A stretch of DNA of 64,000 nt from Alphaproteobacteria bacterium. GTDB taxonomy: Bacteria > Pseudomonadota > Alphaproteobacteria > Rickettsiales > SXRF01. Position 1 is the stretch's first letter, and every line of letters begins with the position of its first letter. The notes under the pieces are model-generated. The model did not search any database, was not told the origin of the DNA, and saw nothing but the letters and a program-made list of their open reading frames with translations. Made by a program: the position numbers and the translations under genes. The DNA lies in the NCBI GenBank assembly GCA_025362975.1, contig JANYES010000021.1:62001-126000 (forward strand), in the 5' to 3' direction. This document shows positions 34,716 through 60,514 of the stretch, in pieces.

Positions 34716-36035
34716 ATGACGCTGGAAACATTGGATAATGCCTGCAAGGATGCGCTGCCTGTCTGCGAACGGGTGATCGACAGGCTTGGCTTTGAAATGA
34801 CGGTGGGCGGGGAAATAGAATGGTATGCGCTGCTGCCGGATGCGGGCGCAAAGCTGACGCAGCGGCAGGCGGCGGATGAAATCGTCAAGATCGCCGAGCG
34901 GAAGCCGGGGTTGTTTCATCAGAATTCGGTGTTGCCGCCTGAGCCGATTTTGATGAAGCGTCTTATCGAAAAATTGGGGAAGAAAAATCCCAATGCTAAG
35001 GATGCGGCTATGGCGTGGACGCAGGAAATTACGCACCAGCACATTGCGTATAAGCAGCCGCTGATGATTTATACAGATTTGCTGTCGATGCGGGTGATCG
35101 AGCGGATGGAACTGGAAGGGATTGCGCTGAACCGCGCGCATTACGAAACCGGGGGATTCAATTCCGCGGTGACGCTGGTGGCGCCGGATCATCATACCTA
35201 TGCGGCGACGGGTAAGCAGATGGAGATTTCGCTTGCGCACACGACCCCGGCGAAGCTGGCGCACGCGATGGAACGGGTGCATACGATTATTGCGGAAGAA
35301 AGCGCGGCGATTGGGCTGATTGCGGATTTCAGAAGGGTGCCGCCTTACCTGTTGCGGGAGTCGGAGTCGGTACTGCCAACAAATTCTCAGCATATTCATT
35401 TCGGACTCGTAATAAAAAATGACGGTACGAATGCATTTACGCAGCATGGCGATTCGAACGCGCTGTCGGAGGCGTGCAGCAAGAGCACGCTGCGGGTGCT
35501 GTCGGAGGGTGGGCAGTTGCTGGCGAATCCGACGGATAATGATTTCAGGCGCATGAAAATGGCGGAGTTTTCCACGACGATCGCACATAAGATTGAAAAC
35601 GGGTATGGCGATAAATCGCGCGCGCTGATGGAGCTTCATTACTCTGACAAGGGCGTGGAACATAAGGAATTGCGGATTGCGGGCGGGAATACGCCAGCTT
35701 CGGCGGCGATTCTGATTGCGGCACTTGGGGTGGCGGATGGCTTGTTGAGCAGTATCGGTAAGGGTGCGCCGGTGGCGCGACGTGGGTTATTTTCGAGGGC
35801 GCAGGAACAGCCTTCGCTGGAGCAGAAGCTGGAGGCGATTAGTGATGAAGACCGCAGGCTGATTGCGCGGCAATGCGCGACGCGGGTGGATTTGCCTGAG
35901 ATGCGCGGCAGCCCCACGGATTATAGCGTGGCGGAGGCGAAGAAACGGCTGGTCCCCTCCTCTATTATTGCGCATTACACGCCGGAGGTGTTTAGGCAGT
36001 TGCAGCAACTTGAGGGATTGGGGTTGGCGGTTTAG
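34716..36035 (+). CDS. Divergent glutamine-synthetase-fold protein
   Basis: 439 residues. Scattered motifs line up with the glutamine synthetase catalytic barrel: GGEIEWYALL (E-x-E pair), GKQMEISLAHTTPAKLAHAM followed by IIAEESAAIGLIADF (compare GPGQ.E and GL.A.F), QHIHFGLVIKNDG (compare GSG.H.H), and KELRIAGGNTPASAAILIAAL (compare R.E.R.AG....). The GSG loop and the NRxxAVR motif are not recognisable. The chain starts directly before the E-x-E strand, so the N-terminal beta-grasp domain of GS is absent. A ligase forming a gamma-glutamyl or similar amide bond is plausible; substrate unknown. It is a plus-strand gene between surE and serS. Confidence 0.6.
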   Translation: MTLETLDNACKDALPVCERVIDRLGFEMTVGGEIEWYALLPDAGAKLTQRQAADEIVKIAERKPGLFHQNSVLPPEPILMKRLIEKLGKKNPNAKDAAMAWTQEITHQHIAYKQPLMIYTDLLSMRVIERMELEGIALNRAHYETGGFNSAVTLVAPDHHTYAATGKQMEISLAHTTPAKLAHAMERVHTIIAEESAAIGLIADFRRVPPYLLRESESVLPTNSQHIHFGLVIKNDGTNAFTQHGDSNALSEACSKSTLRVLSEGGQLLANPTDNDFRRMKMAEFSTTIAHKIENGYGDKSRALMELHYSDKGVEHKELRIAGGNTPASAAILIAALGVADGLLSSIGKGAPVARRGLFSRAQEQPSLEQKLEAISDEDRRLIARQCATRVDLPEMRGSPTDYSVAEAKKRLVPSSIIAHYTPEVFRQLQQLEGLGLAV

Positions 36036-36062: not shown

Positions 36063-37460
36063 TTAACCGATTTTTTCTATGCCGCCCATGTAAGGTTTCA
36101 GCGCGTCGGGGATGCGGATGGAGCCGTCTTCGTTCTGGTAGTTTTCCAAGATGGCGACCATGGTGCGGCCGATGGCGACGCCTGAGCCGTTGAGGGTGTG
36201 GACAAACTGGGTTTCCTTCGCTGCTTTTCCTTTGAAGCGGGCTTTCATGCGGCGGGCCTGGAAATCGCCGCAGTTGGAGCAGCTGGAGATTTCGCGGAAG
36301 GCATCCTGACCGGGCATCCAGACTTCGAGGTCGTAGGTTTTTTTGGAGCAGAAGCCCATGTCGCCGGTGCATAGCAGCATGACGCGGTAGTGCAGGCCGA
36401 GGCGTTTCAGGATTTCTTCGGCAGCGCCGGTCATGCGCTCGTGTTCTTCGTCGGATTTGTCGGGGTGGACGATGCTGACGAGTTCGACTTTGGAGAACTG
36501 GTGCTGGCGGATCATGCCGCGCGTGTCTTTACCGGAGGCACCCGCTTCGGAGCGGAAGCATGGGGTGTAGGCGGTCAGGCGGTGTGGGAGGGTTTCTTCG
36601 TCGATGATGGTGTCGTTGACGAGGTTGGTCAGGGGCACTTCGGCGGTTGGGATGAGCCAGAAGCGCGATCCTTCAATTGCTTTATCTTCAATTTTTTTAA
36701 ATATCTCATCATTACGAGCTTCTTCAGGAGAAAATCCAAGCTCCACCTGAGCTTTTAACATCCGTGAAAAATAATCATTGTAAGATGTATTAATTGTAGA
36801 AAACAAATCATCTTTAAATTTAGGGAGCTGGCCGGTGCCGTAGGCGGCGTTGTCACGCACAAGAAATGGGGGGACGTATTCGACGTAGCCAAATTGCGTG
36901 GTGTGGATGTCGAGCATGAAGCTGGCCAACGCACGTTCCATGCGGGCGAGTGCACCTTTTAGGACGACGAAACGGGCGCCGGAAAGTTTGGCCGCGCCGT
37001 CGAAATCCATGAGACCGAGCTTTTCGCCGAGATTGTCGTGGAGGGCGGGTTTGAAGGCGAATGTTGGCTTAGTGCCGACGACGCGGACTTCTTTATTGCC
37101 GTGTTCGTCCTTGCCTTCGGGGATATCGTCGCCGGGCAGGTTGGGGATGTTGTCGAGCAGCGATTGCAGCGCGGCTTCGATTTTGGCGAGATTTTCTTCG
37201 AATTCCTTGGCGGAGTTGGCGGAGATGCTTTGCTTGAGCATGAGCTCATCGAAGAGTGCGGTGTCGCCCTTGCCTTTGGCCATGCCGATTTCTTTGGCCA
37301 TTTTGTTTTTTTCGCTCTGCCAGTTCTGGATCTTGGTGAGTAGTTTGCGTTTTTCCTCGTCGAGTTTCAGAAGATTTGCGGACATCGGCGCGAGGCCGCG
37401 GCGGGCTAAACCGGCGTCGAAGGCTTCGGGGGATTGGCGGATGAATTTAATGTCATGCAT
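36063..37460 (-). CDS. serS: Seryl-tRNA synthetase, with an in-frame insertion
   Basis: 465 residues from ATG 37460, which begins [20 protein letters not shown] and overlaps the tatC stop by 8 bases. SerRS charges tRNA-Ser. The N-terminal coiled-coil arm (residues about 30-100) and class II motifs are intact: [41 protein letters not shown] (motif 2) and [16 protein letters not shown] (motif 3). The usual length is about 425. The extra residues lie between [11 protein letters not shown] and WLIPTAEVP, in a strikingly AT-rich stretch (36671-36820). Confidence 0.96.
36671..36820 (-). other. AT-rich in-frame insertion inside serS
   Basis: I count 43 G/C in these 150 bases (about 29%), while the flanking serS sequence is near 60%. 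On the coding strand it reads from KFKDDLF through [35 protein letters not shown] to EG, joining ordinary SerRS sequence on both sides. About 40 of these residues have no counterpart in typical SerRS. The frame is kept. It resembles coding-gene insertions such as the Rickettsia palindromic elements in effect, but no clear internal palindrome was found. Confidence 0.65.
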
Positions 37461-60335: not shown

Positions 60336-60514
60336 GCTTTGGCAGAAAACAATAATTATACCCACCGATTCTGAAGGATCAGTTAAATATAGTTGAAAAT
60401 AGGGCCTTTTCATTTTTTTTCAATGGCTTTGTTGCATTAAAAGCAATCTTTACGCAACTCTAAGTTTTGTCGGATATAATCTGAATAATTTAAAAACAAT
60501 CGCCGGGGGTTTAC

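Follow-up and report, generated by a model that had tools for sequence, protein, structure and literature searches.

In a 64,000-nucleotide window of the genome of an Alphaproteobacteria bacterium (Rickettsiales, SXRF01; assembly GCA_025362975.1, contig JANYES010000021.1, positions 62,001–126,000), the gene for seryl-tRNA synthetase (SerRS), serS, runs on the minus strand from 36,063 to 37,460 and carries an in-frame insert in its catalytic domain. The frame is open throughout, insert included, and the 465-residue product has both expected Pfam domains, Seryl_tRNA_N (PF02403, E = 7.5e-22) and tRNA-synt_2b (PF00587, E = 2.6e-45), as well as the columns that are invariant in an alignment with 27 other SerRS. 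By domains, conserved positions and fold, it is a bacterial class II SerRS, and the first-pass annotation of this DNA was right that the frame and the conserved motifs had survived.

The insert was delimited by comparison with a congener, genome G002, whose SerRS matches residues 1–224 and 266–464 of the query in two abutting segments. The 42 extra residues (224–265) place the insert proper at 36,666–36,791 (minus strand). Upstream of it lies a conserved flank (residues 207–220; 36,801–36,842, minus strand) in which G208, T209, Q211–F215 and D218–F220 are invariant in the 28 aligned rows, and downstream lies the WLIPTAEV flank (residues 268–275; 36,636–36,659, minus strand), in which L269–T272, E274 and V275 are. 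The latter contains the serine-binding TxE motif. These two flanks are the putative arms of the recombination discussed below.

An AT-rich block, recognized from G+C content and codon composition at 36,671–36,824 (minus strand), covers most of the insert and also the codons of the conserved LPKFKDDLF segment upstream. Between 36,671 and 36,820, 43 of 150 nucleotides are G or C (0.287), exactly as first counted, compared with 0.579 in the rest of serS and 0.551 in the window as a whole; eight of 63,851 stretches of 150 nt in the window are as G+C-poor as this, and they fall in two separate places. At third codon positions, G+C is 0.20 in the insert vs 0.75 in its flanks, and the block that precedes the insert has 0.3 vs 0.5 in G002. 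The earlier equation of the AT-rich block with an insertion thus holds as to the presence of an insertion in the catalytic domain, but not as to its limits.

The same annotation likened the outcome of the insertion to that of the palindromic elements of Rickettsia; an element of this type would have jumped into serS in frame. According to one report (PMC10969869), these elements are also about 150 nt long and sit in frame in alphaproteobacterial genes with the protein function kept; here a 126-nt insert lies in a 150-nt AT-rich block of an alphaproteobacterial gene. The families described there, however, recur in many unrelated genes and have a conserved peptide. Between 36,600 and 36,900 there is no inverted repeat, as the annotation had itself observed, and only a single imperfect direct repeat of 14 nt; the insert peptide occurs once in the 3.26-Mb genome, in serS; and inserts of other genomes, described below, always occupy the same site and have no peptide in common. 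Furthermore, the largest family of these inserts, when searched in 367 genomes, was found in one, inside SerRS. We give a mobile element of this type almost no credence.

Closer relatives were then compared at the insert site. A SerRS match was obtained in 14 of the 16 family genomes searched, and 11 of the 14, the congener G002 among them, have the normal short turn. In two members that belong to different genera of this family (G005 and G007), the site of the window insert is likewise occupied by additional residues, with a G+C content of 0.415 and 0.333, respectively, from the conserved KF to the LIPTAE strand, and no similarity among the three inserts was detected by BLASTP. In the whole order, 315 of 343 genomes gave a match, a search in which only inserts alignable to that of the window would stand out; among the matches listed, one genome alone outside the family (G118) aligned across the site. 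In this AT-rich genome the SerRS loop (locus L047) is longer at the same place, with altered flanks.

These comparisons bear on the possibility that the insert is an old, lineage-specific domain retained from a common ancestor, in which case most close relatives should share it at normal base composition. They do not, since G002 and ten further family members have the short turn. What speaks for such a domain is a family of eight similar inserts that is spread over Rhizobium, Fulvimarina, Mesorhizobium, Rhodoblastus, a Caulobacteraceae metagenome-assembled genome and two other genomes. Nevertheless, in close relatives the insert is either missing or unrelated, the composition is unlike that of the host gene, nearly identical genes differ in their inserts, and for the window the congener contradicts common descent directly. 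Retention from an ancestor is therefore highly improbable.

The window insert is instead one allele of a recurrent, hypervariable site that is widespread in Alphaproteobacteria, which is the part that the first-pass annotation missed when it described the uptake of foreign-looking DNA by an essential enzyme with its conserved positions intact. Three surveys define the breadth of this site. First, about 85,000 genomes were scanned with the DNA pattern KFx[DEG]DLF, 147–207 nt, IPT[AST]E[VIM], which was tried first on the window and on loci already collected and is biased and incomplete in that it needs AAATTY and the set range of lengths. It returned 41 stretches, of which 39 are open through the insert and 37 are alphaproteobacterial by title (Rhizobium, Mesorhizobium, Nitratireductor, Fulvimarina, Asticcacaulis, Caulobacter, Brevundimonas, Sphingomonas, Novosphingobium, Ferrovibrio and others, with G005 and G007 among them); the remainder are three Methylotenera and one Luteimonas. 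Second, the class was sampled evenly, and an insert-less SerRS query matched 377 of 385 genomes, 28 of them with two or more matches. An in-frame insert at the site was present in 20 of the 377, the window genome included; the other eight multiple matches are split contigs or second copies. Third, the phylum was sampled evenly. An insert is present in 18 of its 135 alphaproteobacterial genomes (again including that of the window; the 135 were counted by hand and rechecked), vs none of the 248 matched genomes of other classes (Fisher's exact test, 3e-9). The sole candidate outside the class, G934, turned out to have a short turn, its sequence being divided between two contigs. The class and phylum counts rely on matches splitting in two and so pass over any insert that is short or that a single match spans. 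A strong skew towards Alphaproteobacteria is evident in these data.

Two sets of loci from the pattern scan deserve separate mention. The three Methylotenera (L062, L079, L086) each have a different insert at the site; since this genus belongs to the Betaproteobacteria, the phenomenon is not strictly alphaproteobacterial. In Brucella oryzae (L084) and in L077, the long-insert pattern matched with the frame closed through the insert, which may reflect sequencing errors or broken copies.

Within one genus, labelled g138, the site was followed at higher density. SerRS was matched in 65 of 69 genomes, and 60 genes were parsed, leaving five matched genomes outside the set. The turn has 20–97 residues in 37 of the 60 genes and 5–11 in the other 23, with none between. 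The next largest internal length ranges in SerRS of this genus are 31, at the C-terminal end, and then 12.

For all loci together, the site was defined as the turn between LPKFxxDLF and WLIPTAEV, which measures 20–115 residues when filled, a few residues of the normal turn included, compared with 5–11 normally. After de-duplication, 102 distinct turns of 20–115 residues were available (median 52 residues among the 100 that have both flanks). At a BLASTP threshold of E 0.001, the 102 inserts fall into 80 clusters, with 69 singletons and a largest cluster of eight, and an alignment of 58 inserts has no invariant column. Independent assemblies carry inserts at the same site, and an assembly artefact was rejected on this ground.

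The most direct observation is that inserts are replaced between near-identical serS genes. In Nitratireductor alexandrii and N. arenosus (L080/L099), the 195 downstream residues are 99.5% identical and the upstream residues 96%, while the inserts are 28% identical. Since the synonymous divergence (dS) of the flanks is only about 0.1, this swap must be recent. The insert of N. arenosus is similar to one in a genome titled Aurantimonadaceae (L093; 47% over 45 residues). Similar contrasts between flanks and inserts were found in two Mesorhizobium (94.9 and 91% vs 11%), two Asticcacaulis (95.9 and 85% vs 8%) and two members of g138 (96.9 and 89% vs 11%). Close genes with homologous inserts also occur (L187/L189, L171/L180, L154/L156). 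In two further g138 genes (L122 and L165), the inserts are alike over roughly their first ten residues and differ beyond them, as though the cassettes themselves were mosaics.

Where the inserted sequences come from was approached through composition and searches. Composition was compared in 97 genes that bear an insert and retain both flanks, as read by a parser that missed 26 of the loci used for clustering, some of them with inserts (L062, L106/L191, L173, L192, L203/L207). Third-position G+C of the insert is below that of the flanks in 91 (means 0.534 vs 0.801), and in 62 of 66 once pattern-selected loci are left out. Moreover, 69 of the 102 inserts are poorer in G+C than every stretch of equal length in their own gene. 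The adjoining upstream block, too, is richer in A+T where an insert is present, differing by −0.27 from the flank vs −0.13 in insert-less genes (pattern-selected loci excluded). The inserts are thus mostly AT-rich and foreign-looking. Several sources were considered and rejected. The 58 inserts gave matches to six PHROG families (best E 0.0036) and three Pfam families (best E 0.018), with one member each and about three matches expected by chance per library. A phage origin of the window insert found no better tblastn match than E 4. Plasmid-borne serS is not an obvious source: among 97 such records, the best 30 are of normal length, in a ranking in which insert-bearing genes would come low. 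An intein was dismissed because the insert has 42 residues and its peptide has no Pfam match, no search having been aimed at splicing motifs. As for diversity-generating retroelements, which would be marked by a template repeat and a reverse transcriptase nearby and by point variation at adenines in the target, the comparison covered the inserts themselves, which differ wholesale and not by point changes.

How the inserts are exchanged may be read from the flanks. In the Mesorhizobium pair L097/L100, differences per 30 nt upstream are 7, 14 and 12, falling to 3, 1 and 4, and downstream 7, 7 and 7, falling to 3, 2 and 1; this is a clear trace of an imported tract that reaches about 90 nt past the insert. 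The window and G002 differ upstream by 10, 10 and 12 and then by 1, 5 and 4 per 30 nt, a tract that is only suggestive because the differences rise again further out. These patterns point to homologous recombination through the conserved flanks as the route of exchange. A precedent exists in penA of Neisseria, where mosaic alleles arise by homologous recombination between homologous segments. As there, a foreign segment would enter an essential enzyme via conserved flanks, with divergence falling off away from the import; unlike there, most of the swapped SerRS segments are mutually unrelated in sequence. Gene transfer agents are common in Alphaproteobacteria and would be a natural vehicle for the cassettes, as a candidate only.

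In three pairs of homologous inserts (L171/L180, L118/L204, L122/L165), the synonymous difference in the insert is clearly above that of the flanks, as would be expected of cassettes older than their present hosts. In others it is not above the flanks, and in L154/L156 it is lower.

The site can be placed on the SerRS fold. In an AlphaFold2 model of the window protein (mean pLDDT 88.4), the insert lies between strands 220–223 and 266–269 and is predicted to form two helices, residues 227–241 (36,738–36,782, minus strand; block pLDDT 83–91) and 251–261 (36,678–36,710, minus strand; block pLDDT 83–87), in an alignment whose other rows carry other inserts. The annotation had asked whether the insert forms a surface helical hairpin; the model agrees as to two helices, and a position on the protein surface is likely. 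A member of another insert family, the SerRS of Fulvimarina pelagi, was modelled with three short helices at lower confidence (54–84). The best solved relatives of the window protein are bacterial SerRS, and the whole fold is like that of the class II enzymes of Escherichia coli and Klebsiella (6r1o, 6r1m, 6h9x; TM-score by target length 0.93–0.96), in which the insert is absent; at this point the sequence match to 6h9x is interrupted.

With human SerRS chains, the match resumes after the insert at residue 264–265, just past insertion II (G254–N261). On the evidence of this alignment, the insert site is the β-hairpin turn that carries insertion II in the human enzyme. Insertion II is reported to lie close to the active site and to play a negligible role in aminoacylation (PMC10817482). 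The cytosolic SerRS of humans and higher eukaryotes therefore offers a likeness in place, the same hairpin turn of the catalytic domain, and a difference in kind: insertion II has eight residues and is described as a feature specific to higher eukaryotes as a group, whereas the turns found here have 20–115 residues, are replaced between congeners and are mostly AT-rich.

Taken together, we consider it likely that the window block is an allele of a hypervariable cassette site, exchanged by recombination, with a turnover that is probably driven by selection. Mostly unrelated stretches, many of them AT-rich and foreign-looking, fill one β-hairpin turn of the catalytic domain. Such cassettes come and go and replace one another, for which homologous recombination via the conserved flanks is the most likely route. 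For the window cassette, the predicted fold is a pair of helices set between the two strands of the hairpin, so that charging of tRNA-Ser could continue. The turnover would probably come from selection to alter or shield the surface near the active site against a synthetase binder, for which toxins, phage proteins and antibiotics are candidates. A conflict with such an antagonist as the driver is a tentative part of the model, to which we give somewhat less than even weight.

Several observations weigh against this interpretation. The first concerns histidyl-tRNA synthetase (HisRS), which was meant as a control. In 20 g138 genes (loci L223–L242), one segment before RGLDY varies in length; at third positions it is poorer in G+C than the remainder of the gene in 17 of the 20, with a mean difference of −0.107 (SerRS inserts, about −0.27), and in 16 of 27 close pairs the segment is less than 40% identical, its boundaries and lengths being rough and its start motif having been set too early in some rows. 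In one pair (L233/L240), flanks of 93 and 89% identity enclose a segment of 29%. The pattern is therefore not peculiar to SerRS, and a SerRS-specific antagonist is weakened; because of this result we slightly lowered our estimate for an antagonist and slightly raised that for neutral tolerance of inserts. Second, clear recombination tracts were seen in one of twelve chosen close pairs, ten others being mixed, and the Nitratireductor pair shows no tract beyond the edge of the insert. Third, third-position G+C is not lower in six of the 97 inserts, the first search aligned G005 across the insert site without a break, and no donor was found for the window insert among 205 other genomes of the order, in which the only match (E 0.037) has stops inside it. 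Finally, our literature searches named no protein antagonist of SerRS; they returned papers on albomycin, an antibiotic linked to SerRS, with nothing on the insert site.

Neutral tolerance would mean that the turn is a permissive surface loop, where chance DNA fragments, foreign or local, are tolerated when in frame, then drift and are lost. The HisRS segment fits it, as does the lack of any Pfam or PHROG family clearly above chance among the inserts. Constraint within the inserts cuts both ways: in the five of 13 chosen pairs of homologous inserts that gave a value, dN/dS is 0.05 and 0.20–0.33, which argues against free drift, yet in all five it exceeds that of the downstream flank (0.03–0.15), and the weaker constraint may reflect folding alone. 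Against tolerance stands the leap in turn length in g138, from 5–11 to at least 20 residues. Also, the neighbouring genes SurE (46 loci) and TatC (38 loci) have no such inserts, each giving a single match whose length departs by −4 to +3 residues (SurE) or −2 to +10 residues (TatC), in loci that are partly cut by locus ends. Nor does tolerance predict the strong skew to one class. We regard it as a somewhat unlikely explanation.

Alternatively, each insert might, in the absence of any conflict, serve its host by binding a lineage-specific partner, as part of regulation or of the assembly of a complex. Partner binding by SerRS is known, in plants and archaea through the catalytic domain (PMC10817482), and the constraint within insert families also speaks for this view. 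A useful binding site should persist within a genus, however, and congeners replace the insert wholesale. This makes partner binding unlikely.

Having weighed these, we return to recombination-fed cassettes under selection. A broader proposal, which we hold as a possibility short of a probability, is that Alphaproteobacteria keep recombination-fed variable sites in their essential synthetases, in SerRS widely and in HisRS in at least one genus, and that mostly unrelated cassettes are swapped there, beside the active site, to escape a class of antagonists that would dock on synthetases, a form of immunity by target variation within the translation machinery. In the open-access literature covered by our searches, no description of such SerRS inserts was found, and on this basis the site appears undescribed so far.

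Aminoacyl-tRNA synthetases are usually regarded as conserved housekeeping proteins. Near-identical SerRS genes with unrelated segments of about 50 residues contradict this picture, and both SerRS and HisRS are among the synthetases used in concatenated phylogenies (PMC3568101). The site hints at a possible unrecognized selective agent acting on synthetases; if it exists, SerRS would be worth mining as a target of antibacterial proteins or compounds. The roughly one hundred natural insertions are, in addition, available for synthetase engineering.

Two further features of the window may be recorded. Only one further stretch, 60,346–60,500, matches the serS block in AT-richness; it lies between open reading frames, upstream of a gene that looks rpoD-like by eye. 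Between surE and serS, and convergent with the latter, sits a plus-strand gene of 439 residues (34,716–36,035) with a weak match to the glutamine-synthetase catalytic domain (PF00120, E = 1.5e-9).
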